Shown one piece after another: positions 5,998 through 20,738 of a stretch of DNA of 64,000 bases (position 1 is its first letter; the number at the start of each line of letters is the position of its first letter). Location of the stretch: assembly GCA_016787785.1 (NCBI GenBank), contig JAEUTO010000005.1, positions 124,001 to 188,000 of the forward strand. Direction: 5' to 3'. Both the position numbers and the translations under genes were made by a program. Source of the stretch: Bacteroidia bacterium (GTDB lineage: Bacteria; Bacteroidota; Bacteroidia; B-17B0; Aurantibacillaceae). The notes below the pieces were generated by a model. It searched no databases and was not told where the DNA came from. It saw nothing but the letters and a program-made list of their open reading frames with translations.

Positions 5998-8900
5998 ATG
6001 AAAAAAATATATCTAGCAATTATTTTATTTGTTTGTTCGGTAAGCCTTAAGGCGCAAGATTATTACATGGACCTGTATACCACTCAAACCGTTACGGCGT
6101 GCAAAGGAAACGTATTTCCGAGTTTTAATTGTGCCGCATTTGGTTATGCAGCTTATTGTAATAACGAGAATTACACCGTTACATTTTATTCGGGTAATCC
6201 CCTAATTCCAATGAAAATAAGTTTCCTTTCGTTAGGATTATTAGGTTTCCCAACAACAGATTGCATTTACACTGAGGCCGGATTCGACTTTTTAACCATC
6301 ATTAATGGACCATCTATAGGAAGCCCAACATTGGCGTCTATTTCAGGTACTGTTGCTAATCCGGTAAGTTATCAATCTACAGGCGCGTATTTGACTATCA
6401 ATTTTAAATCAGATAACGTTGTTAATGATTGGGGATGGAATGCTATTATAGGTTGTCAACCGCAAAACTGTTCGGGGAATTTGCCTGCAAGTGATGTGTG
6501 CGCTTCGGCCGTTCCAATTTGCGACTTAAATGGGTATTGTGGTGCAACCAACGGATGGTATACACCTGATAATGCTACCCTTGGTGTTAACCTTGGCGGC
6601 CCTTTTTGCGGTGCTTCGGGCTCTATAGAGAATAATTCGTGGATAAAATTCATTCCAAATTCAGCAACAGCTAATATTAATATTGCTGTGCAAAACTGTT
6701 CTTCGCCAACACAAGGTTTACAGGCCGGCCTTTTTAGCACGCCTAATTGCTCGGCATTTACTTTACTCACTTGCCAGTCGCAGGCCACTTATGCACCAGT
6801 AATGACATTAAGTTATAATTCATTCGTGCCCGGTAATACCTATTACATTATGATAGATGGTTTTGCGGGTAACGCTTGTGATTACACAGTTAGCGCGTCC
6901 TCCGGGGTCGCGATTTCAACGGTCAATGTTTCAAGTAATGCTATTTGTTTTGGTCAGAGTAGTAATTTAACCGCGATTGCGGCCGGCTCCACACCAAGTT
7001 ATACCTGGAGTACCGGAGCTAATACGGCCGGTATAACTGTTTCGCCGGCGCTAACAACTGCTTATACAGCTACAATTGCATCCGGTTTTTGTACAGAGAT
7101 CATCACCAAAACCATTACCGTAAATCCTTTACCCGTTGCAAATGCAGGAACATCACCCGCCTCTATCACCTGCGCAAGTCCAACACAGGTTTTAAGTGGG
7201 TCGGGCGGAGGTACTTATGCCTGGAGTGGTACTGGTATTGTGAGTGGTGGCGGTACTGCAAACCCAACAATTAACCAAGCGGGCCCGTTTTCTTTAGTAG
7301 TTACATCCGGCGCAGGTTGTACTTCTACCAATGTGGCAACCGTTAGTGTACCTGTTAATACAGTATTACCTATACCAGCTATTTCTAGCCCTACGGTTTT
7401 AAATTGTAGCAACCCATCTATGAATTTAACAGGCTCTCCTGCAAGTAACGTAAATTACTCGTGGACAGGCCCGGGCATTGTATCTGGCAGTGCTACTGCA
7501 ACCCCGTTAATTAATGCAGGTGGAACGTATAACTTAAATGTTACATCAACAATTAACGGCTGTTCCAGCGCAACAAGCATTGCTATTGCAGCTCCTAATA
7601 CAACTATCACAAACTCTCCTACAACAACAGGTAGCGTTACCTGCGTAAATATGTTGATCAATTTGAATACACCTGCTGTAGCAGGACAAAACTATACGTG
7701 GACTGCACCAGCGGGCGCAGCTATTACATCTGGTGCAAACGCTGCCGCAGCAACCGGATCAAACTCAGGGACCTATTCGGTAACCGTATTCAATACAACT
7801 AATGGCTGTTCGTCCACTAGCGTAGTAGCTGCTGTTGTAAATACTGTACAAGGCGTTCCAAACGCTACCAGCGCTGGTACTGTAACTTGTGCTAACAATG
7901 CTATAAATTTAAGTTCATTAACAACGGGTGTAACATATACATGGGTGGCTCCAGTTGGGTCATCTATCAGTAGCGGTGGTAATACAGCTAACGCCAGCGG
8001 AAATGGCGGTGGAACTTATACTTTAAATGTGACCAATTCTGTTAACGGATGTACCAATACAAACATTGCAGCTGTAACGACCCAAACAGTAAAACCAATA
8101 GCGGTAATAAATTCAACACCAGTAATTACCTGTAACAATCCAACTGTAAATATTACTGGCGGACCAGTGGCGGGGGTAACTTATACTTGGAGTGGAGGCA
8201 CCATAGTAGGCTCTGCTAATAATAACAACGCGAACGTAAGTTCTGCTGCAGTTTATTCATTAGCAGTAACCAGTACCAGCAATGGTTGTACATCTACAAC
8301 AGCAGCAACTGTAAACATTACTTCCAATCTAACCACCCCGGCAATAACTGCTATTGGTAGTCAAACTGCTAATTCGGGTTGTGGTACAAGCAGTATTGTT
8401 GTACTTAGTGGAACGGCCACTCCAGCTGGAAGCACCTATACATGGGCATCATCAGGTGGTTTTTCAAGCGGTGTAAATAACTCTACAGTGGCGGTTAACG
8501 GCGCAACAACCTACACATTAAATTCAACGCATCCTGTTACAGGTTGTATTTCTTCTTTGGTTTATACAGTTAGTCCTTCTGTAAACCAACCAACGGTAAC
8601 AGCATCTTCTTCTAATGGAACATTAACCTGTGTAAACACCATTCAATCAACAACAGTAACATCTAACCCTTCAACCGGTGTTACCTATGCATGGACAGGT
8701 CCTGGAATTGTAGGTCCTTCTAATACTTCAGTGGTTAGTGGAAGTTTAGCAGGTGTATATAATTTAACGGTTACCAATACAAGCAATAATTGCAACACCA
8801 CGGTGTCGTATAATCTAGCTGCAAATAATACTCCTATAACACCAAATGCAGTTGCTACAAATAGTATAAACTGTAATAATACAACAGCAACTATTTCAAC

Positions 8901-10818
8901 GGCGCCAACGCCAACGGCAACTGCCTTTAATTATACATGGAGTGCGGGACCAAATACTTCGTCGATAGTAGTAAATCCCACAGTTAATACGTCTTATACA
9001 GTTACCGTGCAAAACCCCGCTAACGGCTGTACTGGTACTGCTGTTTACAATGTAATAGCTAATACTGTTCCGCCAACTGCTGTAAACGTTAGTCCTAACA
9101 ATGTTTTATTGGCCTGTCCGGCACAAACTGCATTTATCACCGGCTCAGCTACAGGAGCAGTAAGTTATTCGTGGGTTGCTCCCGCAGGAGGATCTATTTT
9201 AGCTGGAGCCAATACGGCAACCGCACAAGTTACGAGCTCAAGTATTGGAACCTTTTCTTTAATAGCTACAGCAGCTAACGGTTGTTCTGCTGCCGCAGGA
9301 ACAGCAACGGTATCTCCGAACACCAATGCGCCGACCTTCTCTTTAAGCAATGCTAATCCAAGCATCACTTGTTTAACAGCCTCACCAAATGTAACAGTAG
9401 CATTAACCTCTACGGTTGCCATTCAGGGTTATACATGGAGTCCGACTGCTGGTATTGTTGGCACTAATTCAACCGCAGCGGTGAGCTTTAGTGCGCCGGG
9501 TATTTATACAGTAGTAATAGAAGCTACCAATGGATGTTTATCAACCGGTACCGTATCCGTTGGTAATGCAACAACAGCACCCACCATTGTAGCAGGAACA
9601 GCCACAGCACAAAATATATCTTGTACAAATACTATTGTAAGCATAGCACCAACCTTTACACCATCTGCAAACTTAACCTATACATGGTCAGGCCCTGGTA
9701 TTGTGGGAAGCCCAAACAATGCAAACGTACAGGTAAACCAAAATGGATCATATAGCTTAACGGTTACCAATACCTTAACGGGTTGCAGCACAACATCATT
9801 AACAGTACCGGTGGTAGGCACCAATGTACCACCAAGCTTAAACGTATCAAGTAGTTCAAGTATAGGAATTGGTTGTCAGCCAAACACCAGCACGGTGAGC
9901 TTAACAGCCTCATCAGCAGGTTCGGTAACCTATAGCTGGAGTACAGGAGCAACTTCGTCGGTTATTAATACAGCTAACGCAGGAACGTATACAGTTACTG
10001 TTACAGATAATAACTCAGGCTGTTCGGCAACACAAACCATTACAGTTGCCAATAACACCACCACACCAAGCTTTACGGCAAGCGCATCAGGCAACTTACC
10101 TTGCGGTGGAGCGGGTACGACTACCTTAAATGCACAAGCCAGCAATACCAATGTAATATATAATTGGAGTGGCCCTGCAATAACTAACGGTTCTAACACT
10201 GCCAACCCGGAAGTAAACGGAGCTGGTGTTTACACGGTAATAGTAACAGATAACATTACCGGATGCGCATCTACACAAACAGTATCGGTAAGCAGTACTT
10301 CTGTAGTAGCGGCCTTTAATCCCGATGTAACATCAGGCGTTGCACCATTGACAGTGAACTTCACAAATCAAAGTATAGGCGCTATTACGTATTCGTGGAG
10401 TTTTGGCAATGGCACATCAACACAGGTCAATCCAACCAATGTTTTCTCACCGGGAACATATACCGTTGTATTAACATCAATGAATGGAGCTTGTACTTCA
10501 ACGGCAGAGATAGTAATAAAAGTAAATAATAAAATAGGTAATATACCCGAAGTGTTCACACCAAATGGTGATGGTCATAACGATGTGTTCGAGATAACAG
10601 GACTGGATTCTTATCCTAATAATAGTTTACAGATCTTTAACCGTTGGGGTAACCAGGTTTATTTTGCCAAGCCATACAAGAATGATTGGGATGGATCGCC
10701 AAATGCAAATGGTAAAACAGGATCTAATAAATTACCAACAGCAACCTACTTTTATATTTTAGATCTTGGCGATCAGGATCAAACTATTATGAGAGGATTT
10801 ATTCAATTACAGTATTAA
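5998..10818 (+). CDS. Giant T9SS repeat adhesin with gliding-motility-associated C-terminal domain
   Basis: A 1606-residue secreted protein. In order: signal peptide (1-19); a CUB-like N-terminal domain (about 20-155); a Cys-rich beta domain (about 160-305, CDLNGYCGATNGWYTPDN); about a dozen or more Ig-like repeats (about 310-1430) sharing YTWSGPGIVSG, Gly-Thr-Tyr and NGC motifs; a PKD domain (about 1436-1510, TYSWSFGNG); and a CHU_C/type B sorting domain (about 1514-1606, PEVFTPNGDGHNDVF...NRWGNQVY). Type B-sorted proteins such as the SprB adhesin are exported by the T9SS and act at the cell surface. Ser/Thr/Asn/Gly richness and the paired Cys in each repeat are typical. It heads a cassette with the PorP/SprF and OmpA genes, its expected partners. 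The ligand is unknown. Confidence 0.9.
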   Translation: MKKIYLAIILFVCSVSLKAQDYYMDLYTTQTVTACKGNVFPSFNCAAFGYAAYCNNENYTVTFYSGNPLIPMKISFLSLGLLGFPTTDCIYTEAGFDFLTIINGPSIGSPTLASISGTVANPVSYQSTGAYLTINFKSDNVVNDWGWNAIIGCQPQNCSGNLPASDVCASAVPICDLNGYCGATNGWYTPDNATLGVNLGGPFCGASGSIENNSWIKFIPNSATANINIAVQNCSSPTQGLQAGLFSTPNCSAFTLLTCQSQATYAPVMTLSYNSFVPGNTYYIMIDGFAGNACDYTVSASSGVAISTVNVSSNAICFGQSSNLTAIAAGSTPSYTWSTGANTAGITVSPALTTAYTATIASGFCTEIITKTITVNPLPVANAGTSPASITCASPTQVLSGSGGGTYAWSGTGIVSGGGTANPTINQAGPFSLVVTSGAGCTSTNVATVSVPVNTVLPIPAISSPTVLNCSNPSMNLTGSPASNVNYSWTGPGIVSGSATATPLINAGGTYNLNVTSTINGCSSATSIAIAAPNTTITNSPTTTGSVTCVNMLINLNTPAVAGQNYTWTAPAGAAITSGANAAAATGSNSGTYSVTVFNTTNGCSSTSVVAAVVNTVQGVPNATSAGTVTCANNAINLSSLTTGVTYTWVAPVGSSISSGGNTANASGNGGGTYTLNVTNSVNGCTNTNIAAVTTQTVKPIAVINSTPVITCNNPTVNITGGPVAGVTYTWSGGTIVGSANNNNANVSSAAVYSLAVTSTSNGCTSTTAATVNITSNLTTPAITAIGSQTANSGCGTSSIVVLSGTATPAGSTYTWASSGGFSSGVNNSTVAVNGATTYTLNSTHPVTGCISSLVYTVSPSVNQPTVTASSSNGTLTCVNTIQSTTVTSNPSTGVTYAWTGPGIVGPSNTSVVSGSLAGVYNLTVTNTSNNCNTTVSYNLAANNTPITPNAVATNSINCNNTTATISTAPTPTATAFNYTWSAGPNTSSIVVNPTVNTSYTVTVQNPANGCTGTAVYNVIANTVPPTAVNVSPNNVLLACPAQTAFITGSATGAVSYSWVAPAGGSILAGANTATAQVTSSSIGTFSLIATAANGCSAAAGTATVSPNTNAPTFSLSNANPSITCLTASPNVTVALTSTVAIQGYTWSPTAGIVGTNSTAAVSFSAPGIYTVVIEATNGCLSTGTVSVGNATTAPTIVAGTATAQNISCTNTIVSIAPTFTPSANLTYTWSGPGIVGSPNNANVQVNQNGSYSLTVTNTLTGCSTTSLTVPVVGTNVPPSLNVSSSSSIGIGCQPNTSTVSLTASSAGSVTYSWSTGATSSVINTANAGTYTVTVTDNNSGCSATQTITVANNTTTPSFTASASGNLPCGGAGTTTLNAQASNTNVIYNWSGPAITNGSNTANPEVNGAGVYTVIVTDNITGCASTQTVSVSSTSVVAAFNPDVTSGVAPLTVNFTNQSIGAITYSWSFGNGTSTQVNPTNVFSPGTYTVVLTSMNGACTSTAEIVIKVNNKIGNIPEVFTPNGDGHNDVFEITGLDSYPNNSLQIFNRWGNQVYFAKPYKNDWDGSPNANGKTGSNKLPTATYFYILDLGDQDQTIMRGFIQLQY
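6910..10305 (+). repeat. Tandem Ig-like repeat region in adhesin gene
   Basis: Diverged coding repeats of about 75-90 codons, recognisable by recurring TATxCATGG or TATxxxTGGAGT (Tyr-Thr-Trp), GTATTGT-type (Gly-Ile-Val) and AATGGxTGT (Asn-Gly-Cys) segments. Some pairs, such as those near 8690-8750 and 9680-9760, are close at DNA level, which favours repeat-number change by recombination. Confidence 0.75.
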
Positions 10819-10851
10819 TTTTTTTAGTAACGAAGAAAATAAAATAACAGA

Positions 10852-11781
10852 ATGATCAAGCGCACAAACATTGCAGGTTTAATAGTACTAAGCTTTTTAA
10901 GCACTACTATATCTGCGCAGCAAGAGGTTCAAAACTCGTTTTACATGTTTAACTCCTCTATTTTAAATCCGGCTTATGCTGGCAGTCGCGATGCGTTAAG
11001 CGTTGTTTTAGATGCTCGGAGCCAATGGACAGGATGGAAAGGCGCACCCAAAACAAATAGTTTTATTATGCACACGCCATTAATGAACGAATCTATCGGT
11101 TTAGGTTTAAACGTTGTAAATGATGTAATAGGGCCCACAAACAAAACTGCTGTGTTTGGCGACTTTGCATACCGTATTCGTTTAAATAAGGCAAACGATC
11201 GTTTATGCTTCGGTATTCGTGCTGGCGCCGATCTTATAAGAAATAATTTAGGAGGCTTAGCTGTTAATGACGCGGCAGATCCGCTAGTGACCAATAACAC
11301 CAATTTTAACACCAACACATTTAATACAGGTGCCGGTGTTTATTATTATGGTCAACGTTTTTTTGTTGGTTTAACTGCTCCAAAAGTTATTCCAAGCAAA
11401 TTAAGTAAGGATGCAAACTTTGCTGCATCAACACAAGTATTACACTATTATTTAATTGCAGGCTACGTGTTTAAGTTAAATAGTTTATGGGATCTAAAAC
11501 CGGGATGCGCAATTAAGTATACACAAAATGCGCCACTGTCAATTGATGCCAATTTATCTGCCTTGTTTAATGAAAAGATCTGGTTTGGTGTAATGTACCG
11601 TCACGGTGCAGCAGCAGGCGCTAACATTGCCTACAATTTTACAAAGCAATTACGTGTTGGATATGCATACGATTACTCTATTAACAACATGGGAAAATAT
11701 AGCCCAAGTACGCACGAGGTAATTATTGGATATGATTTCTTATCAAATCAAAAAGCATTAAAATCACCACGTTATTTTTAA
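10852..11781 (+). CDS. PorP/SprF family T9SS outer-membrane protein
   Basis: A 309-residue barrel protein with signal peptide MIKRTNIAGLIVLSFLSTTISAQ. The family opening follows at once (YMFNSSILNPAYAGSRDALSVVLDARSQWTGWKGAP), and alternating beta strands run to VIIGYDFL. PorP/SprF proteins bind the T9SS attachment apparatus and are needed for secretion or anchoring of the neighbouring CHU_C-bearing adhesin, as SprF is for SprB. The gene starts 33 bp after the adhesin stop and 21 bp before the OmpA-like gene, so the three are almost certainly an operon. Confidence 0.93.
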   Translation: MIKRTNIAGLIVLSFLSTTISAQQEVQNSFYMFNSSILNPAYAGSRDALSVVLDARSQWTGWKGAPKTNSFIMHTPLMNESIGLGLNVVNDVIGPTNKTAVFGDFAYRIRLNKANDRLCFGIRAGADLIRNNLGGLAVNDAADPLVTNNTNFNTNTFNTGAGVYYYGQRFFVGLTAPKVIPSKLSKDANFAASTQVLHYYLIAGYVFKLNSLWDLKPGCAIKYTQNAPLSIDANLSALFNEKIWFGVMYRHGAAAGANIAYNFTKQLRVGYAYDYSINNMGKYSPSTHEVIIGYDFLSNQKALKSPRYF

Positions 11782-11802
11782 TACAATAAAGAACTTAATA
11801 AA

Positions 11803-14013
11803 ATGAAAAATACGATACTATCTTTCTTAATTATTACATCACTTGTAACTAAAGCACAATCGGTAAAAGAAAAAATTGCCGATAAACGTTTTAATAATTT
11901 AGAATTTGTTTCTGCATCCGAAATGTATGAAGAGCTTTCGAGAAGCAAACATCCAAAAATTAAATACTACGTGCGCGCCGGCGAAAGTAATTTAAACATG
12001 GGCGATTATCGTAAAGCACAAGTGTATTACGACAAAGCGTATTCTAACACGGGCATGACTGATCAGGATCTTTACAATTATTACCAGGTTTTAAAATACA
12101 ATTCAAATTACGGTAAGGCTACTGAAGTATTCTCTAAAATTAATGACAATCAGTATAAACTTATCAGAGATAATTTAGCGCAAAAAAAACTTGTTATCGA
12201 AGATCTAAAAAAAGATTCGAGTAACTATGTCTTAAAAAAATTATCAATCAATTCTGATGAAGGTGATTTTTGTCCATATGTTGTAAATAACGAAATGTAT
12301 TTTCTTTCATCAAGAAGAAATACCTCTGTAGCAGGACGTAAATACGGTTGGGATGATTCTTATTATTTAGATGTATACAAAGGTTATATCGAAGGAACCG
12401 ATGTTTTGAATGCGCACGCTGTAAAAGAAGGTTTAAAAACAAAAGTGCACGAAGGCCCCATCTGTTTTACAAAAGACGGCAATACACAATATATTACACG
12501 TAATAATTTTATAAAAAATAAATATCAAAAAGCAAAAGATGGCCGTGTAAATCTTAAAATATTCAGCAGAAAAAAAGAAGGAGAAGGTTGGGGCGAATGG
12601 ACTGAATTCCCGTTTAACAGCGATGAATATTCTTGTGGGCACCCAGCAATAAGTGGAGACGGTAAGACTATTTACTTTGTTTCAGACATGCCAGGTACAT
12701 TGGGTTTAACAGACGTGTGGGTAAGTAATTTTGAAAATAATAGTTGGACAAAACCAACAAATCTCGGTCAATCTGTGAATTCAGAAGGAAGAGAAATGTT
12801 CCCTCAATTATTTGAAGACGAAGTTTTATTTTATGCTAGTGATGGAAAAGTTGGTTTAGGCGGCCTAGATATTTTTTATACAGTGCCTGCCGAAGATTCT
12901 TACTTTGAAGCACAAAATTTGGGATACCCTGTAAACTCACAATTTGATGATTTTGGTTTTTATGCCAGAACAACAACAACAGGTTACATTACTTCAAATA
13001 GAGGCGGCACAACAAAGGATGATATTTATAGTTTTGTTGCAAAGCGCCCGATCATTAGTAGTGCTATTAATTTAATTGTAAAAGATAATCTGTCAAAAGA
13101 AATTATTCCTAACGCTACTGTGGTTTTAATTGATGAGACCGGTAAGCCCGTTTACGAAGCAAAATCAGATGACAATGGAGAAATTAAGTTGAATGTTTTG
13201 CCGGGAAAAGATTATAAGCTTAAAGCAAATAAAGATGGTTATAAGGAAAGTGTTGGCGTTATTAAGGAAGCGGATATTGCATCTTTAGCCAATACTAAAA
13301 AAGAAGTTTTAGTTGAGAAAAAAATTATTGGTTTACTTGGTTTAATTGCCGATGCAGATGACCTTTCACCAATTGAAGGAGTAAAAGTTACTATTACAGA
13401 TGCGTTCACGCAAAAGGAATTTATGAGCTTTACTACTGATAAGGACGGAGATTTTAGACACATTTATAAAGATAAAAAAGTGGGCGACGATCTTTCTTAC
13501 ATGGTAAAAATGGAGAAAGAAGGTTATTTGACCAAGATACAGCCCGTTGATATTACTATTAAAAAAGAAGGATATGTTTTACTACACGATTATTTAAATA
13601 CCAAAATGTATAAAATTAAATTGGGTGCCGATATTGGAAAAGTTGTTGACTTAAATCCAATTTATTTTGACCTTGGTAAAGCAGTTGTTAGACCGGACGC
13701 CAAAATAGAATTAGAAAAGATCGTTCAGTTGTTAACTCAAAACCCAAGTATTACTATTGAGTTGAGTTCACACTCTGATTGTAGAGGTGGTGCAGCGGGG
13801 AATCTTGCTTTATCTGACCGTCGTGCAAAAGCATCTGCGGGTTATGTAATATCTAAAGGTGTTAGCCCTCTTCGTATCTACGGAAAAGGTTATGGCGAAA
13901 CTAAATTAATTAACGATTGTAAATGCGAAGGTGCAGTTGTAGTTCCTTGTAGCGAAGAACAACATGCGCAAAACAGGAGAACTGAGTTTAAGATCGTAAA
14001 GATCAAATCGTAA
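11803..14013 (+). CDS. OmpA-family protein with TPR, PD40 repeats and carboxypeptidase-regulatory-like domains
   Basis: A 736-residue envelope protein. After the signal peptide come a TPR-like region (about 30-120), WD40-like PD40 repeats (about 155-410; FLSSRR, YFVSDMPG, FYASDG, YITSNRGG), two carboxypeptidase-regulatory-like beta domains (about 415-500 and 510-595), and a C-terminal OmpA peptidoglycan-binding domain (about 615-736) with SSHSDCRG and LSDRRAKA. This is the PorE-like architecture that commonly accompanies PorP/SprF and anchors surface adhesins to peptidoglycan. It is the last gene of the cassette, closed by the terminator at 14031. Confidence 0.92.
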   Translation: MKNTILSFLIITSLVTKAQSVKEKIADKRFNNLEFVSASEMYEELSRSKHPKIKYYVRAGESNLNMGDYRKAQVYYDKAYSNTGMTDQDLYNYYQVLKYNSNYGKATEVFSKINDNQYKLIRDNLAQKKLVIEDLKKDSSNYVLKKLSINSDEGDFCPYVVNNEMYFLSSRRNTSVAGRKYGWDDSYYLDVYKGYIEGTDVLNAHAVKEGLKTKVHEGPICFTKDGNTQYITRNNFIKNKYQKAKDGRVNLKIFSRKKEGEGWGEWTEFPFNSDEYSCGHPAISGDGKTIYFVSDMPGTLGLTDVWVSNFENNSWTKPTNLGQSVNSEGREMFPQLFEDEVLFYASDGKVGLGGLDIFYTVPAEDSYFEAQNLGYPVNSQFDDFGFYARTTTTGYITSNRGGTTKDDIYSFVAKRPIISSAINLIVKDNLSKEIIPNATVVLIDETGKPVYEAKSDDNGEIKLNVLPGKDYKLKANKDGYKESVGVIKEADIASLANTKKEVLVEKKIIGLLGLIADADDLSPIEGVKVTITDAFTQKEFMSFTTDKDGDFRHIYKDKKVGDDLSYMVKMEKEGYLTKIQPVDITIKKEGYVLLHDYLNTKMYKIKLGADIGKVVDLNPIYFDLGKAVVRPDAKIELEKIVQLLTQNPSITIELSSHSDCRGGAAGNLALSDRRAKASAGYVISKGVSPLRIYGKGYGETKLINDCKCEGAVVVPCSEEQHAQNRRTEFKIVKIKS

Positions 14014-14030
14014 GCGGTATTTTTAAAAAA

Positions 14031-14058
14031 AAGGCGAAGCGAAAGCTTCGCCTTTTTT
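14031..14058 (+). terminator. Rho-independent terminator after adhesin operon
   Basis: A perfect 10-bp inverted repeat, AAGGCGAAGC and GCTTCGCCTT, around a GAAA tetraloop, followed by TTTTG. It lies 17 bp after the OmpA-like gene. Confidence 0.93.
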
Positions 14059-14135
14059 GTTTCTATCTGTATATCAATTAGTTAGATTTAAAAGAAATTG
14101 TTTGATCGCCCAACCTTAAGGGCTTTTAATTTGTA

Positions 14136-14735
14136 ATGGTTAATAGAGAACTTATAAGTAATAACATGGATATTCAGCCCCAACTGATCAACGGTTGCAT
14201 TGAGCGTAACCGCAAGGCTGAATATGAATTGTATAAACTTACCTATAGTTATTTAATGAGCATTTGCATAAGATATACCCGTAATGAAGATAGAGCGAAG
14301 GAAGTATTAAATATTGGGTTCCTTAAAATAATTACAAACCTGGATAAGTATAAACCCGAAGTACCTTTTAAAGCCTGGATAAGAAAAGTGATGATCAATA
14401 CGCTGATCAACGAATACAAAAAAGAAAAGATCCACTACAGCAATGTGCAGTATGTTGAAGATTATCATGAAACAGATAAGTATGCAAGCATTAACGAAGC
14501 TATTACTAAAATTGATGCCGATCAGATCTATTCATTCATTGCAGAATTACCACCAGCCAGCCGCCAGGTATTTAACTTATATTTTGTTGACGGATTTAAG
14601 CACAAAGAAATTGCCGAATTATTGAATATTACCGAAGGAACATCTAAATGGCATTTAAATTCGGCTAGGGAAAAATTAAAAGAACTTTTAAAAAAAAATG
14701 ATTTACACGAAATAAACATGATCTACCATGAATAG
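14136..14735 (+). CDS. ECF RNA polymerase sigma factor
   Basis: A sigma-70 family ECF factor of 199 residues. Region 2 spans about 20-95 (AEYELYKLTYSYLMSICIRY, VPFKAWIRKVMINTLINEY), and region 4 about 135-190 (PPASRQVFNLYFVDGFKHKEIA, TSKWHLNSAREKLKELL). The ATG at 14166 (MDIQPQLINGC) fits the family N-terminus better than the ATG at 14136, so the true protein may be 189 residues. It overlaps the next gene by 8 bp, which implies translational coupling with a probable anti-sigma protein. The regulon cannot be read from the sequence; downstream PKD genes are obvious candidates. Confidence 0.93.
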   Translation: MVNRELISNNMDIQPQLINGCIERNRKAEYELYKLTYSYLMSICIRYTRNEDRAKEVLNIGFLKIITNLDKYKPEVPFKAWIRKVMINTLINEYKKEKIHYSNVQYVEDYHETDKYASINEAITKIDADQIYSFIAELPPASRQVFNLYFVDGFKHKEIAELLNITEGTSKWHLNSAREKLKELLKKNDLHEINMIYHE

Positions 14736-16137
14736 TGAAAAAGATTTTAAAGATGCCTTAAAAGGAAAGCTGAACGAAAAGCAGTTCCAGTTTGATGAGT
14801 CCAACTGGGAGCAGGCTAGCGCTATGCTTGATGCTACCCGAGAAGAAAAGAAAAAACGCCCTTTCTTTTATTATATTTTAAGTGGCATATTGTTATTTAT
14901 TACAGCTATTGGATTTTATATTTTAAAACCAACAGAAACTAGTCTTAAAAAAGAGATCGCTGTAAACAATGCAAATATAAAAACAACAGAAACTGTAAAC
15001 CCGAAACAAGAAACAAAACAACAAGAAACAGTTCTTCCTTTAGCTGAAAATACTTCAATTTCAAATGCAGAAAATAAAATTGAAGAACCGCTAACCGAAA
15101 AAGTTGAACAACCTGTTTCAACAAACGAAAAAATTGTAGAGGAAAAAAATACAAATTCAAAACCGGTAACTAAAGTTTCTAAAAAAGAAAAGAAAACGAA
15201 TGTAACGTCGGGCGTTATTGTATCATCTAAAACAAAGAAGAAAAAAGAGATAACTTCTAAAAATAATGTGGAAGTTGCAATAACAACTACAAAAAATAAT
15301 GAGGAGGCGCCGATCGCTAAAAATATTCCTGAAGAAGTAAAATCAACACCGGCAAAAGTTGAAGAAACACCTGTTGTTGTTCCTGCAGTGGTTACACCTG
15401 AAGTAATCGTTCCAACAACTGCTTCTACTAATAATAATTCAGACTCTGTAAAAACTGTTGCTACAATTGCAGAGGTGCCAAAAAAAGATTCTTTGCCAAA
15501 ACCACTTGTAAAAGAACCTATACATTTTATTTCGTTTGAAGCAGGAACCAATTATTTATTTGGCTGGAATAACCCGGGTAAAAGAGATGCGAATGGTTTT
15601 AATCCTATTGTAGGTTTAAATTATTCTAACGTTATTACTAAAAAAGTAACATTCTCTTTTGGTATTCATTACACGATGGTGCGTAACCTTTCATACAGCA
15701 GCCATACCGTAACCACAACACGTTATAATTTTGGCGAAGAAAGCGATGTGATGGTATTTACACCAACTACCATGCATTATATGGTTGCTCCTATCCGGGC
15801 AAGTTATGCAATTGACGCCAAAAACGTTTTTGGTATTGGATGCAATGTTGGTTATTTATTTAATTTAAATAGTAATGTTGAATTATACAGCCAAAAAGCC
15901 AGTCAAAAAGGTAACGCTACAGTTTTAAAAACTTCAGGCTACACCCAAGGCTTTAAAACAATTGAGACACAGCTATCTCTTTTTTACAGAAGGAATCTTG
16001 CTAAAGATCTTTGGTTACATACTGAATTTATGTATGGTATGACCGATGTGAAAGACAATGCTTTCTTTAACTCTAATGTAAAGGAAAAAAATATTGGTTT
16101 AAAACTTACTTTAATTTATAATTTATTTAAAAAATGA
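14728..16137 (+). CDS. Probable dual-membrane-spanning anti-sigma factor (cytoplasmic segment, inner-membrane helix, long linker, outer-membrane barrel)
   Basis: A 469-residue protein coupled to the ECF gene. Residues 1-44 are a charged cytoplasmic segment (DFKDALKGKLNEKQFQFDE) like small anti-sigma domains. A single hydrophobic helix follows at about 46-65 (FFYYILSGILLFITAIGFYI). Residues about 70-265 are a low-complexity K/E/T/V/P-rich linker with no Cys. The C-terminal about 200 residues (from HFISFEAGTNYLFGW) alternate hydrophobic and polar like an eight-strand outer-membrane barrel and end in LTLIYNLFKK. The same layout is known from the dual membrane-spanning anti-sigma factors of Bacteroides. 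The assignment rests on architecture and position, not on a sequence match. Confidence 0.75.
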   Translation: MNSEKDFKDALKGKLNEKQFQFDESNWEQASAMLDATREEKKKRPFFYYILSGILLFITAIGFYILKPTETSLKKEIAVNNANIKTTETVNPKQETKQQETVLPLAENTSISNAENKIEEPLTEKVEQPVSTNEKIVEEKNTNSKPVTKVSKKEKKTNVTSGVIVSSKTKKKKEITSKNNVEVAITTTKNNEEAPIAKNIPEEVKSTPAKVEETPVVVPAVVTPEVIVPTTASTNNNSDSVKTVATIAEVPKKDSLPKPLVKEPIHFISFEAGTNYLFGWNNPGKRDANGFNPIVGLNYSNVITKKVTFSFGIHYTMVRNLSYSSHTVTTTRYNFGEESDVMVFTPTTMHYMVAPIRASYAIDAKNVFGIGCNVGYLFNLNSNVELYSQKASQKGNATVLKTSGYTQGFKTIETQLSLFYRRNLAKDLWLHTEFMYGMTDVKDNAFFNSNVKEKNIGLKLTLIYNLFKK

Positions 16138-17252
16138 GAACGTTTAATTATATAATACTCTTTTCGCTTTTGATTTTTGTTTCCTGCAAAAAAAAAGAAT
16201 ATCCTGTATCATCTATTGAAGGTAGTCCTGTTTTTAATTGCAGTATGAATGTTAACGGAACGCCAACAAGTTTTGAGGCTGGTGTGAATAATTACTATAT
16301 GTATTCTTCTTTTCAACAAGATTCGAATAATGTTTATGGATTTATGGCTGGCTTAAAACAAACAGGTTGCAGCAATTGCCCAAACAGTATTGAAATACAG
16401 ATAAACGATTTTAAGGTAAGAACTTCAAATGCTCCAACTCAGATCGATTCAGCTCTTATTCCCGGCAACTATAATTATTTGTTAAGCGCGTCGGCCTCTT
16501 ACTTTACAGCTCAATTTCAATCGAGTTATAATAAGCCAGCCTCTTCTTACCTTTGGAACTTTGGCGATGGCTCAACTTCAAATTTGCCATCTACAAATCA
16601 TGTTTACAAAAAAGCGGGTCAGTATAAAGTTAGCTTAACAGTAAATGGCGTTAATTCTTGTGTAAGCAACAGCAATTCTTTTCAAAATATTGGCTTTTTA
16701 AATAATGGCTTTCGCACAACGATTAGCGATTCAAGTACTTTTGGTAACAGTGTTAGTTTTTTTGCAAATAATATGCAAGGCACAGCACCTTTTACATATG
16801 CCTGGAATTTTGGTGACGGTACGGCAGTATCAACAGCCGCAAATCCAAATCATACTTATTTACATATTGGGAGCTATCCTGTAACATTAAAAGTAACCGA
16901 TAACACCGGCAAAATTGCTTATGCTAATTATAATTTTGTAACACAAAACGATAATTCTTCATGCGCTACTAATTATACCATTGCTTCTGTAAACGCTACT
17001 CCAAATACATTAGGCTTGTCTAACGTTGTTATAAACTGGACAGATGCTAATGGTACAGTTTATACATCAAAAGATCCACTACAACCTGTATCAAGTTATT
17101 TTACAATCGTATCGGTAGATGATTATCAAAAAAATGATAATAATGAGGTGACTAAAAAATTACATGTTAAATTCAGTTGTGTTGTTTATAACGGCAGTAG
17201 TTCTATTGCGCTAACCAACGCCGATGCTGTAATTTGCGTGGCTTATAAATAA
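16134..17252 (+). CDS. PKD-domain lipoprotein
   Basis: A 372-residue lipoprotein (signal MRTFNYIILFSLLIFVSC, lipobox Cys18). Two PKD domains are evident from SYLWNFGDGSTS and TYAWNFGDGTAVS, each followed by the HxY and GxYxVxLxV strands (about 120-190 and 195-270). The N-terminal 100 residues and the C-terminal 90 residues are unassigned. It overlaps the preceding anti-sigma-like gene by 4 bp (ATGA), so it is translated from the same message. It could be a surface partner or ligand of the barrel domain; that is inference. Confidence 0.85.
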   Translation: MRTFNYIILFSLLIFVSCKKKEYPVSSIEGSPVFNCSMNVNGTPTSFEAGVNNYYMYSSFQQDSNNVYGFMAGLKQTGCSNCPNSIEIQINDFKVRTSNAPTQIDSALIPGNYNYLLSASASYFTAQFQSSYNKPASSYLWNFGDGSTSNLPSTNHVYKKAGQYKVSLTVNGVNSCVSNSNSFQNIGFLNNGFRTTISDSSTFGNSVSFFANNMQGTAPFTYAWNFGDGTAVSTAANPNHTYLHIGSYPVTLKVTDNTGKIAYANYNFVTQNDNSSCATNYTIASVNATPNTLGLSNVVINWTDANGTVYTSKDPLQPVSSYFTIVSVDDYQKNDNNEVTKKLHVKFSCVVYNGSSSIALTNADAVICVAYK

Positions 17253-17361
17253 TTTTAAAACTAACCCAACCAACTAAAAAAGTTGTTTGTATAAGTGTAT
17301 TAAGAAGGGGAGGATGCCGAAGATCCCAAAAAAGAGTAGGCGAAATGTTAAAAACAAAAAA

Positions 17362-19557
17362 ATGAAAAAAACTATTACTTATCTGTCTCTCGTACTTAGC
17401 TTCTTATTTGTGTTAAATTCGGGAAAAATAGCAGCGCAATGTGTAGCCAACTTTAATTACACTACCAATGCAAACGGCAACGTTACTTTTCTTGCCAATT
17501 GTACGCCGGTAAACTCAATAACTACACAATACCAATGGAATTTTGGTAACAGTGCAACCTACAGCGCTATTGGTTCGCCAACCGCCTCAATAACTTATAC
17601 TGCAAACGGCACGTATACTGTAAATTTATTTTATAATACCCCGCCTACCTGTTCTAACTCGGTATCATATACAATAAATATTACCAACGCAATTACGCCA
17701 ACGTGTAATATAAATGCTAATTTTTCTTATACTCAAGGTAGTAACGGAGCGGTAAGTTTTACAAGTACATCAACCGGCACAGTTCCAGGAACTACTTATT
17801 CATGGGCATATGGAGACGCTACTGCTGGTTCCGGCGCTACGTCTTCACATACATATGCAGCCAATGGTAATTATAATGTTGTTTTATATGCAAATAATAA
17901 TTTTACGGCAACTTGTTCTGATTCTGTTGTTATTCCAATTTTTGTTAACTCATACCCCTGCGCATTAAATGCAAGTTTTACGTACACCTTAGGTGCTAAT
18001 GGTCTGGTAAATTTTAGCAGCACTTCTGTTGGTACAAATACGTTAACCTCATATTCATGGAATTATGGTAACTCAACTTCGGGTTCCGGACCTAATCCCT
18101 CAACGGTCTATACCAATGGAACATATACCGTTACGTTAATGGCCATGAACTCTTTTACAACGTGCGTAAGTACAGCAACGCAGGTTATTACGGTAACATC
18201 CAGCACATGCAATCTCAATGCTAATTTTACATTTACACAAACAGGTAATGGAGGTGTAAATTTTGTAAGTACATCTACCGGCACAGTTCCCGGAACAACC
18301 TATACCTGGGTTTATGGTGACGCAAGTTCTAACGGTACTGGTGCATCAACTTCTCATACCTACGCTGCAAATGGTGGATACAACGTTTTTTTATATGCTA
18401 CAAATAACTTTACACCATCATGTTCAGATTCTGTTTCGTTTTTTGTAAATGTTACTAGTTTACCATGCGGGTTAAATCCAAATTTTACGTTTACGCAGGG
18501 TAGTAACGGAACAGTTAATTTTAATAGTACTTCTACAGGTACTGTTGCAGGAAGTGTTTATAGTTGGCAGTTTGGAGACTTTACTTCTGGTTCGGGAAAT
18601 CCTACGTCACACACATATGGTTTAAATGGTACTTACATTGCAACGTTAACTGTAATAAATAATTCAATAACCTGTTTTTCTTCAGTTACAAAAACTATTG
18701 TGGTTAACTCAATTTCGGTAACACCTTGTAATTTAGTTGCAAATTATTCGCATACAGTTGGTGCAGGTGGTAACGTTAATTTTGCAAACACGTCAACCGG
18801 CACAAACGCAAACACCACCTATTATTGGAATTTTGGCGATGGATTTACAAGCACCAGCCAGTCTCCAACACATACATATAATAGCGCTGGCGCTTATAGT
18901 GTGTTGCTGTTTGTAAATAATCAAACTACTCCAACTTGTATCGATACAATAGTTCAATCAATAAACGTTACAGGTATTCCTTGTGTAGCAAATTCAAATT
19001 TCAGTTTGGCGCCAAGCACAACTACCTTAGTTTGGAACGCTACACCGGCATCGCCCTGGAATGTAGTTGCTGCAACATGGAGTTGGGGAGATAATAGCAC
19101 CAGCAATACACTGTATGCATCACACACTTATTCTGCGTCAGGAACTTACTCTATTTGTTTATCTGTTACTGTTGCATGTGGTGGCTCTTCGTCAACCTGC
19201 GTAAATCAATTTATCTTCAAGTCTTCAAGTCCCGAAATGCAAATGATTCAGGTAAATGTTATTCCTCCGGCGCTTACGCCTACAGCAATTAAAGATGTTG
19301 AAATTGAAAATGTAAATTATGCGATCTATCCAAACCCAAACAGCGGACAGTTTGATGTGAAAATAGACGATGCAAATAACGAAACTGTAAAAATTAAAGT
19401 TTACAATTTAATTGGCGAAGTTGTTTATGAAACAGAAACCGTAAATGATAATATGACTAAAAAAATAAATTTAGATAACGTTGCTAATGGTGTTTATTTT
19501 GTGAAAATAAATTCAGGAAGTAAAGAAAGTACTAAAAAAATGATCATTAATAAATAA
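17362..19557 (+). CDS. Secreted PKD-repeat protein with T9SS type A sorting domain
   Basis: A 731-residue protein starting at ATG 17362 with signal peptide MKKTITYLSLVLSFLFVLNS...AAQC. The longer in-frame start at 17287 adds a lysine-rich stretch before the signal and is rejected. Seven or so PKD-like repeats of about 85 residues follow, each with a C-x-L/I-x-A-N-F start, a YSW/YTW-x-YG/FGD core and an SHTY strand. The C-terminal about 80 residues (YAIYPNPNSGQFDVKI...ANGVYFVKI...KKMIINK) are a T9SS type A sorting signal. It is exported and probably anchored at the surface. It lies 110 bp after the PKD lipoprotein and may belong to the same ECF-controlled locus. Confidence 0.9.
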   Translation: MKKTITYLSLVLSFLFVLNSGKIAAQCVANFNYTTNANGNVTFLANCTPVNSITTQYQWNFGNSATYSAIGSPTASITYTANGTYTVNLFYNTPPTCSNSVSYTINITNAITPTCNINANFSYTQGSNGAVSFTSTSTGTVPGTTYSWAYGDATAGSGATSSHTYAANGNYNVVLYANNNFTATCSDSVVIPIFVNSYPCALNASFTYTLGANGLVNFSSTSVGTNTLTSYSWNYGNSTSGSGPNPSTVYTNGTYTVTLMAMNSFTTCVSTATQVITVTSSTCNLNANFTFTQTGNGGVNFVSTSTGTVPGTTYTWVYGDASSNGTGASTSHTYAANGGYNVFLYATNNFTPSCSDSVSFFVNVTSLPCGLNPNFTFTQGSNGTVNFNSTSTGTVAGSVYSWQFGDFTSGSGNPTSHTYGLNGTYIATLTVINNSITCFSSVTKTIVVNSISVTPCNLVANYSHTVGAGGNVNFANTSTGTNANTTYYWNFGDGFTSTSQSPTHTYNSAGAYSVLLFVNNQTTPTCIDTIVQSINVTGIPCVANSNFSLAPSTTTLVWNATPASPWNVVAATWSWGDNSTSNTLYASHTYSASGTYSICLSVTVACGGSSSTCVNQFIFKSSSPEMQMIQVNVIPPALTPTAIKDVEIENVNYAIYPNPNSGQFDVKIDDANNETVKIKVYNLIGEVVYETETVNDNMTKKINLDNVANGVYFVKINSGSKESTKKMIINK

Positions 19558-19590
19558 AATAGTTTTATAGTTAATTATAAGGTCTTAAAA

Positions 19591-19618
19591 AAGGGTTGCC
19601 GTTTGGTAACCCTTTTTT
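19591..19618. terminator. Bidirectional terminator between convergent genes
   Basis: AAGGGTTGCC and GGTAACCCTT (one G-T wobble) around GTTT, flanked by A-runs upstream and T-runs downstream. It can serve both the PKD-repeat gene and the holB gene, whose stop codon lies at the hairpin edge. Confidence 0.88.
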
Positions 19619-20738
19619 ATTTTGTGTTGATCAGTTCGTTTGTTTTTAAGAGCAGATCCATGAAAAGGATCTTTGGATTAGCGTTACGCTCTATATAATA
19701 ATAATTGTTATTAAATTCTTCTACAAGACGCTCGTAATTTTTTTGATTGATAAAGGGAGCAAACTTTTCGAGGAATTGTCTTTCCTGTCCGCTTAACCTT
19801 ACTAAATTCTTATCGCCAAAATTATACATCAAACAATCGCGAAAAACCTCTAAACCATATTGCAAAAATTGCTTTTGTTTTTCACGACCGGACGCCGCAT
19901 TCTCATCTATCCATGTTAAAGCTTTACCCGGATCGAATTTTAAAGCCAGGCGCATAAAACTCTGGAAGTGCGCCAGAAAAGAAACACTTTCTTCATTATG
20001 CGTTAGTAAAGTAATTGCTTCTGCATAATTACCGTTGGCAAGAATTGCAGTTTGTCTTGCAACATCCGCATTCACTTTATAATTAGATACAAGCGCTTCA
20101 GAAATTTCTTGTTCGCTGCAAGTGTAAAAAGGTATTTGTTGTACGCGCGAAATTATAGTAGCCAATAATTGTTCGGTATGGTTGCATACCAAAACAAAAA
20201 TGGTTTTATCGGGCGGCTCTTCTAATATCTTTAAAAGTTTGTTGGCCGATTCGGCATTCATTTTTTCTGGCTGCCAAATGATCATGATTTTATAAGAACC
20301 TTCGTAGCTGGTGTAACTTAATTTTTTTAAGATATCATTTGCTTCTTCAACGGGTATTATGGGCTGTTTGTTCTCAGCGTTTAATTCGTTAAACCAATCA
20401 TTTAAACTAATATAAGGATTGGCCAAAAAAGCTTCCCTGAATTCTTTAATCAGGTCATTACTGCTTTTTACATCTTTACTTTTTGCAATAGGAAAAACCA
20501 GATGCAGATCGGGGTGAATTAATTTTGAAACTTTATTACAAGAGATGCAACTTCCGCAAGCGCCTTCGTCGGTTTTATTTTTACAATATAAGTGTTGCGC
20601 AAAAGCAACTGCTGCGGGTAAATTACCGCTCCCTTCTTTTCCGGCAAATAATAAGGCATGGGGCACGCGTTCTTCCTTCACCATTTTTAGTAAGCGGTGC
20701 TTAGGTTCTTGCTGACCAACTATTTGACTGTAAAGCAT
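19617..20738 (-). CDS. holB: DNA polymerase III subunit delta'
   Basis: A clamp-loader AAA+ subunit of 373 residues. It starts LYSQIVGQQEPKHRL and contains a zinc module with Cys52, Cys61, Cys64 and Cys67 (GACGSCISC). The sensor/lid part includes NKLLKILEEPPDKTIFVL and an SRVQ segment. The phosphate-binding loop is GKEGSGNL and lacks the usual GKT. This is normal for delta', which need not hydrolyse ATP. The start is ATG 20738, preceded by TATCTTTA-gata, a near-consensus -7 box four bases before the start. The pth stop lies 17 bp upstream. Confidence 0.92.
   Translation of the reverse strand: MLYSQIVGQQEPKHRLLKMVKEERVPHALLFAGKEGSGNLPAAVAFAQHLYCKNKTDEGACGSCISCNKVSKLIHPDLHLVFPIAKSKDVKSSNDLIKEFREAFLANPYISLNDWFNELNAENKQPIIPVEEANDILKKLSYTSYEGSYKIMIIWQPEKMNAESANKLLKILEEPPDKTIFVLVCNHTEQLLATIISRVQQIPFYTCSEQEISEALVSNYKVNADVARQTAILANGNYAEAITLLTHNEESVSFLAHFQSFMRLALKFDPGKALTWIDENAASGREKQKQFLQYGLEVFRDCLMYNFGDKNLVRLSGQERQFLEKFAPFINQKNYERLVEEFNNNYYYIERNANPKILFMDLLLKTNELINTK

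Follow-up and report, generated by a model that had tools for sequence, protein, structure and literature searches.

A predicted trans-envelope sigma switch of the Dma type, with a constant PKD lipoprotein partner and type IX-secreted adhesins as likely output, in a Bacteroidia bacterium

This article concerns a 64,000-nucleotide stretch of DNA from a Bacteroidia bacterium of the family Aurantibacillaceae (hereafter the window; positions 124001-188000 of contig C13 in a 4.6-Mb genome of 16 contigs) and, within it, four consecutive genes on the plus strand that quite probably encode a sigma-factor switch reaching across the cell envelope. The switch would be of the Dma (dual membrane-spanning anti-sigma factor) type, with a lipoprotein as its constant partner and an adhesin as its dedicated output. 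As open reading frames (ORFs), they are those of an extracytoplasmic function (ECF) sigma factor (14136-14735), a 469-residue Dma-like protein (14728-16137), a 372-residue PKD lipoprotein (16134-17252) and a PKD-repeat protein exported by the type IX secretion system (T9SS; frame ending at 19557), the sigma gene overlapping the second gene by 8 bp and the second overlapping the lipoprotein gene by 4 bp. These frames and overlaps are just as the original prediction, made by a model from the letters of the window, had given them.

The 469-residue protein is predicted to have a Dma-type layout of cytoplasmic helices, one membrane helix, a disordered tether and an outer-membrane barrel. An AlphaFold2 model built from a 42-sequence alignment contains helices at residues 3-16 and 24-41, a further helix at 46-66, a stretch from 71 to 261 where the predicted local distance difference test (pLDDT) score is mostly below 50, and a confident barrel at 265-468. 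Residues 1-45 (14728-14862), the candidate sigma-binding region in the cytoplasm, carry the motif F-x-F-D-E-x-N-W, in which W27 is invariant across 58 Dma N-termini, and residues 46-66 (14863-14925), the best hydrophobic segment of the protein, are immediately preceded by a basic KKKKR, which fits an N-inside orientation under the positive-inside rule for membrane helices. The K/E/T/P-rich tether (residues 67-262; 14926-15513) runs here for ~196 residues without secondary structure, is estimated at 89-281 residues (median 211) across 59 Dma proteins and is poorly conserved in sequence among them. For the eight-stranded C-terminal barrel (residues 265-468; 15520-16131), Foldseek searches with the model placed OmpA, Ail and OmpX among the best Protein Data Bank (PDB) matches, and VIA-align gave NspA at Z 16.2 (root-mean-square deviation (rmsd) 2.9, 154 residues aligned), OmpA at Z 15-16 and OmpW at Z 15.0, the alignments to these three having an rmsd of 2.8-4.0 over 152-168 residues; a sequence-only PDB search with the Dma profile was set aside after returning four weak matches, none of them a barrel, so that a comparison of folds was required. 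The original prediction had proposed this very layout and had staked it on structure prediction of 14728-16137, and the C-terminal domain did emerge as a membrane barrel from AlphaFold2, Foldseek and VIA-align. The arrangement is like that of Dma1-Das1 and Dma2-Das2 of Bacteroides thetaiotaomicron, where, in the available sections of the report, an ECF gene lies beside the gene of a protein with an N-terminal sigma-binding domain, one membrane helix, a long disordered tether and a C-terminal barrel, and where Dma2 likewise belongs to a three-gene operon (PMC13088901).

The order sigma factor, Dma-like protein, lipoprotein is not a product of chance, since it recurs across 60 Dma loci in 34 genomes. 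A search with the barrel recovered relatives in 34 of 60 genomes, namely 31 of 37 from the genus (the own genome included) and 3 of 23 others, and the 60 loci compared include the two of the own genome, one of 61 rows (L113:18307) having been dropped as a duplicate of L114. A sigma gene adjoins the Dma gene in 58 of these loci and a lipoprotein gene in 59, and the exceptions (L093 and L133 for sigma, L103 for the lipoprotein) are contig ends. Approached from the third gene, 61 full-length lipoproteins in 40 genomes of the genus (E<=1.9e-102) stand well apart in score from one contig-truncated copy (E 2e-38) and from cross-matches to other PKD proteins (E 2.4e-29 and weaker); 55 of the 61 lie in inspected loci, every one adjoining a Dma gene, with the other six outside the count, and the six genus genomes without a Dma match have zero full-length lipoproteins. 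On contig C4 the own genome has the full arrangement once more (sigma factor 55%, barrel 33% and lipoprotein 35% identical, the lipoprotein again of 372 residues), and by sequence these are its only two sigma loci with this type of Dma protein, further matches falling at E 7.1e-5 (the C4 copy again) and then at >=9e-4. The genome has 26 sigma region-2 matches in all, and among the 18 others that were inspected (six of the 26 were left out, and the sigma frame was missing in three of the 18) membrane proteins of other kinds follow some ECF genes.

Beyond the genus, named public genomes were represented by the 80 best of at least 567 sigma relatives, whose titles name Bacteroidota groups (among them Saprospiraceae, Flavobacteriales, Chitinophaga and Phaeodactylibacter) except for one called simply 'bacterium'. 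Hidden Markov models (HMMs) recovered the trio in 54 of the 80 (45 with a lipoprotein at E<1e-20), a Dma-like gene only in 20 and neither in 6; a sigma-profile scan of the named genomes found trios in other bacterial orders as well, and some of the loci L134-L150 are contigs of genus loci already counted. Because more than 4 kb of sequence is present downstream in 13 of the 20 Dma-only loci, the third gene there is truly different or absent, and the third component is thus constant in the close group and replaced or absent in some distant relatives. The one-protein signal path that the original prediction had drawn from the surface to the sigma factor is therefore probably not how the system works, since the PKD lipoprotein is constant in the group. 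In five distant loci (L192, L194, L198, L199 and L210), a Dma-like protein of 559-617 residues has its membrane helix near residue 154-166, the lipoprotein (~310-360 residues) is less similar and, in four of the five, there is a fourth gene of ~365 residues; these are possibly a further variant.

The lipoprotein (16134-17252) has a lipobox, FVSC, with lipidation predicted at Cys18 and KKKEYP following it, and two PKD stretches by Pfam. Its model is all-beta and multi-domain (mean pLDDT 87.8), and its PDB matches fall mainly on the second PKD domain (residues 190-274), leaving the end domains unassigned, which is no evidence of a new fold. Cys18 is invariant among 58 lipoproteins, and cysteines 79, 82, 176, 277 and 349 are kept in 74-91% of them. 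According to the part of the source available, the signal that exports lipoproteins to the surface in Bacteroidetes requires an overall negative charge (PMC5080379). The acidic lipoprotein export signal (LES), defined in other families, is absent from CKKKEYP; 55 of the 58 lipoproteins have a net basic charge over residues +2 to +6, and just 2 carry more than one acid there. Since these post-cysteine residues are basic, unlike the acidic export signal, the lipoprotein probably faces the periplasm and not the surface, and so the original prediction, which had listed it as a surface protein, appears to have been mistaken in that respect. Kinship with DUF4943, the family of the third gene in the dma2 operon, was considered and rejected, no such Pfam match appearing at E<=0.1.

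ECF promoters typically carry AAC at -35 and CGT at -10, and an element of the same general form, CCCAAC[C/T]-N16-[C/T]GTA, is probably the promoter of this sigma family. The window has two predicted copies: P1 (14109-14137) before the sigma gene, with CCCAACC at 14109-14115, a 16-bp spacer and TGTAAT at 14132-14137, and P2 (17265-17293) past the lipoprotein gene, with CCCAACC at 17265-17271, again a 16-bp spacer and TGTATA at 17288-17293. Across the loci the motif precedes the sigma gene with at most one deviation in 44 of 55 and with at most two in 49 of 55, as compared with 0.04 and ~1.1 per 55 in dinucleotide shuffles, and 245-bp windows inside genes contain it at up to one deviation in 3 of 1304 cases; the spacer is fixed in length and variable in sequence. 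Similarly, 25 of 62 distant loci (L151-L213 minus L171; sigma identity <=53%) have CCAACC-N16-YGTA at up to one deviation, or 40 of 79 when taken with the first 17, against 0.5 in letter shuffles. On the scale of the own genome, a looser pattern has 14 matches versus 3 for its reversed control and the strict pattern 10 versus 0, the strict counts over 40 genomes being 181 and 69; since the 40 stretches looked at were chosen by eye among the matches listed, mostly with CCCAACC, the 35 of 42 matches that lie outside ORFs of at least 120 residues describe that choice and are not an unbiased rate. The promoter also bears on the sigma gene itself, which the original prediction had correctly delimited as an ORF and had probably begun too early: ATG 14136 overlaps the P1 -10 element and the consensus of the relatives opens with M-x-I-Q, both of which favour ATG 14166 and a protein of 189 residues (14166-14735). 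That protein has sigma-70 regions 2 and 4 by Pfam, and no ECF21 model is among the best 25 of 101 NCBIfam matches.

The gene past the lipoprotein (17362-19557), where the original prediction had seen a PKD-repeat T9SS protein, indeed encodes seven PKD stretches and a Por_Secre_tail (PF18962, E 1.5e-17; TIGR04183, E 4.6e-14) and so belongs to the type A cargo of that system. It begins at ATG 17362, 109 bp past the lipoprotein gene, with the promoter-like site and a DUF805b RNA element in the gap. Since the promoter motif recurs in front of it, the most fitting role for this gene is that of an output. The original prediction, which had offered the PKD proteins as ligand, co-sensor or target, is supported in so far as they are read as partner and target. 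A second predicted target of the own genome is unlinked: its product has 701 residues, PKD stretches and a Por_Secre_tail, and its ATG lies 76 bases after the start of CCCAACC-N16-TGTAATG. A like site with a like spacer exists in four relatives (L262, L268, L269 and L273) with a similar protein behind three of them, the one in L273 confirmed by Pfam, and L269 has no ORF of 60 residues within its 742 bases of sequence. Other TGTA sites precede PKD genes in L264 and L271, with a T9SS tail, and in L281, cut by the contig end; yet others precede a DUF7948 protein, two lipoprotein-like genes and, in two genomes, a helix-turn-helix-like gene, or have no clear gene behind them.

Furthermore, the first base of the -10 element divides the trios. 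With loci assigned to T or C by eye, and with L125, L076, L078, L102 and L109 kept outside the residue comparison for want of a clear site, a T9SS PKD gene comes directly past the lipoprotein gene in 19 of 20 TGTA loci (in the remaining one the contig stops 641 bp on) as opposed to 1 of 29 CGTA loci. The sigma factors differ in parallel, N92, K95 and H100 being fixed in 20 of 20 T loci, and D92 and R95 being fixed, with H100 never present, in 30 of 30 C loci. A quick sigma tree leaves T and C loci unmixed, with a support of only 0.35 for the separating branch, and so the split may reflect a single event.

The close company of T9SS genes in the TGTA loci raises an unlikely alternative, in which the lipoprotein and the T9SS PKD protein both sit at the surface and the Dma barrel senses the latter, or its absence, as a monitor of T9SS secretion status. 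The 19 of 20 loci just mentioned would suit it, as would the precedents for T9SS-linked ECF control in the parts available of two reports: SigP of Porphyromonas gingivalis acts with PorXY and has the surface protein PorA upstream (PMC7712824), and the SM6 promoter class of Flavobacterium psychrophilum, which has a CGT -10 box as here, counts T9SS genes and an ECF/anti-sigma pair among its targets (PMC9723704). Against it, 28 of 29 CGTA trios have no adjacent T9SS PKD gene (three of these ending within 500 bp), so that the core seems not to need one, and the lipoprotein has no acidic export signal. The precedents also differ from the present locus, as SigP is activated by a two-component system, with targets among the genes of the T9SS machine and no anti-sigma factor described in the sections available (PMC7712824), and as the named SM6 targets in the sections available are T9SS components and Band-7 proteins (PMC9723704), a comparison into which the -35 element does not enter.

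Several observations weigh against reading the locus as a Dma-type switch with a partner and a dedicated adhesin output. The 469-residue protein has zero Pfam families at E<=0.1 and, in NCBIfam, a single irrelevant model far under its cut-off. With no known anti-sigma domain recognised by either resource, it might be a mere inner-to-outer membrane tether that is co-regulated with the sigma factor; this is very unlikely, as the gene order, the overlapping genes and the layout match those of Dma1 and Dma2, which are genetic repressors of their sigma partners, and as conservation of the N-terminal motif, with W27 invariant, goes along with the sigma pairing. The trio is also sporadic in the phylum: when a lipoprotein profile was run over 296 genomes drawn across it, with six candidates scored in each, only the own genome scored at E<=1e-35, although with six per genome true lipoproteins may have been crowded out by PKD cross-matches. 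As for the promoter, 11 of the 55 sigma upstream regions are off by two or more positions, six of these by at least three; past the lipoprotein gene the full motif at up to one deviation is found in just 17 of 58 loci (0 in letter shuffles); and P2 is missing within 200 bp from several loci that have a T9SS gene downstream (L119, L120, L121, L123, L128 and L130 among them), where that gene is perhaps read through from P1. Finally, the strict pattern hits mixed targets in the own genome: of its ten matches, four are trio sites, one belongs to the unlinked PKD gene, one to an rpoD-like gene and one to a small ORF, one lies ~150 bp ahead of an unrelated gene, and the last two overlap with ORFs.

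These ten matches bear on a further rival, namely that the motif serves a wider set of ECF factors and that the PKD genes are read by several of them, the trio being one input of a shared envelope regulon. CGTA sites precede an rpoD-like gene in three genomes, the own and two relatives, and are also found ahead of a further ECF gene (one relative) and of a T9SS-tailed protein (L265); since the motif precedes this rpoD-like gene and a further ECF gene, it is not exclusive to adhesins, which also speaks against a dedicated output. The -35 element is, in addition, common to two sibling trios, and SM6 in F. psychrophilum is thought, in the portion of the report available, to be read by several ECF factors (PMC9723704). 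Opposed to this are the first -10 base, which tracks the grouping of the sigma sequences (T in 20 loci and C in 30, though perhaps through a single event), and the count of just ten strict matches in a 4.6-Mb genome with 26 sigma region-2 matches, so that the rival falls on the unlikely side. Two groups of sites deserve mention in their own right. Directly before the rpoD-like gene of the own genome (L227; C14:529346-529375, minus strand) is CCCAACG-N16-CGTAATAG, and the same gene has tandem sites in one relative (L283) and a single site in another (L289). In three genomes, the own among them (L263, L291 and L293), a conserved small membrane ORF beginning MTEIALKR lies ~10 nt past the -10 of CCCAACC-N16-CGTATT.

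The switch with a lipoprotein partner thus remains the preferred reading, and the mechanism that I infer for it builds on the architecture, the conservation of the trio, the promoter motif with its positions and the output genes, for which sequence and structure prediction provide support. At rest, the cytoplasmic helices of the Dma protein would keep the ECF sigma factor at the inner membrane, its disordered tether spanning the periplasm to the eight-stranded outer-membrane barrel. The PKD lipoprotein, probably in the inner leaflet of that membrane, would act there as a co-sensor with the barrel. An analogy exists in Escherichia coli, where RcsF with OmpA, an outer-membrane lipoprotein and an eight-stranded barrel, reports on the envelope. 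A change in the outer membrane or at the surface would free the sigma factor to transcribe from CCCAACC-N16-TGTAWW, in its own operon, so that sigma, anti-sigma and partner would rise together, and also at the genes of PKD adhesins exported by the T9SS, of which one is adjacent and at least one lies elsewhere in the genome. In B. thetaiotaomicron, deletion of dma2 sends the das2 sigma gene strongly up and its neighbours up, which, in the available account, is consistent with autoregulation (PMC13088901).

The sibling trio on contig C4 differs in its predicted output. There, C replaces T at the -10 element, and what comes after the second promoter is a short unit ending in a terminator (L014:6645-6775) and not an adhesin. 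In this and related loci the sequence reads CCCAACC-N16-CGTATT, then ~95 nt, then a covarying terminator; the distance between second promoter and terminator is ~80-115 nt in the own genome and several relatives. In an alignment of 11 copies, the 13-pair stem has changes on both sides at 6 pairs versus a mean of 2.1 in shuffles. A covariance model of the 11 copies gave 15 best matches in 40 genomes, four of which (L303, L304, L306 and L312) lie outside the training set, all four with a promoter at about the same distance and two of them (L303 and L304) past a lipoprotein gene. The unit follows a promoter of at most one deviation in 14 genomes (G025 by way of L084), plus G009 (L094), and weaker sites in G030, G012 and G060; L302 was scored through L084, and L311, L314 and L323 by eye. 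In G003, G029, G021, G028 and G015, the RNA unit and the trio are on different contigs. Among fifteen lower matches (L313-L327, E >=4.9e-5), L315 has the promoter and L314 a weaker form of it; the remaining 13 have none and were set aside as plain terminators. The sibling unit is a candidate ECF-driven small RNA; the trio of the window showed no small RNA, its second promoter preceding the adhesin gene. In E. coli, the envelope ECF factor RpoE likewise has terminator-ended small RNAs among its outputs, under control by RseA proteolysis and with no dual-membrane protein, and it is in logic that the sibling trio is likened to it, RNA sequences standing outside the comparison. Taken together, and with slightly more doubt than belief, I would propose a family of three-component dual-membrane sigma systems (sigma factor, barrel-tethered anti-sigma factor and constant PKD lipoprotein) with a readable promoter code, in which TGTA with N92/K95 would lead to T9SS PKD adhesins and CGTA with D92/R95 to a terminator-ended RNA of ~80-115 nt in at least 14 genomes of the genus, as the small-RNA arm of an envelope sigma factor.

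Around the four genes, a predicted intrinsic terminator (14027-14058, a 14-pair stem and then a T run) stands between the sigma operon and the upstream genes, closing a PorP/OmpA unit, and another (19586-19619) lies downstream of the adhesin gene; the scan of the region that gave them found 5 against 4.0 in shuffles, a count not above chance. Directly upstream (5998-14013) are the genes of a giant CHU_C-tailed adhesin, a PorP/SprF protein and a PorE-like OmpA protein, and PorP and PorE are found beside the trio in four close relatives (L116-L119) at 88-94% identity. The DUF805b candidate RNA element (RF02914; 17307-17342), located at the beginning of the predicted 5' leader of the adhesin mRNA, scores 37.9 bits against a gathering score of 35.6 and exceeds that score in 5 of 11 related loci searched. 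Elsewhere in the genome DUF805b stands before genes of short peptides whose start is double-glycine-like (L034 and L036) and, under the gathering score, a collagen-like lipoprotein gene (L037).

Set beside the known systems, the type of sensor is already known, and what looks new are the partner, the DNA signal and the target genes. In the parts of the B. thetaiotaomicron report available, the third gene of the Dma2 operon is a DUF4943 gene (BT_1557), unlike the PKD lipoprotein here, the outputs are NigD1, polysaccharide utilization loci (PULs) and outer-membrane vesicles (OMVs), unlike the T9SS PKD adhesins predicted here, and a promoter element is not described for Dma1 or Dma2 (PMC13088901). 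A literature search, with most subscription papers and all preprints outside its reach, yielded no PKD lipoprotein partner, no such promoter and no small-RNA output for Dma-type systems. The Dma idea, met in the available sources only in Bacteroides and with regulons that are for the most part indirect, would hereby become a directly testable circuit, with a defined promoter, the surface adhesins as a defined class of outputs and, in the lipoprotein, a specific third protein as candidate for the sensor's missing part. If true, this would link the state of the outer membrane to the choice of what is displayed through type IX secretion with no need to assume a two-component system, and the sibling locus would add a small-RNA output of an envelope sigma factor in the Bacteroidota.

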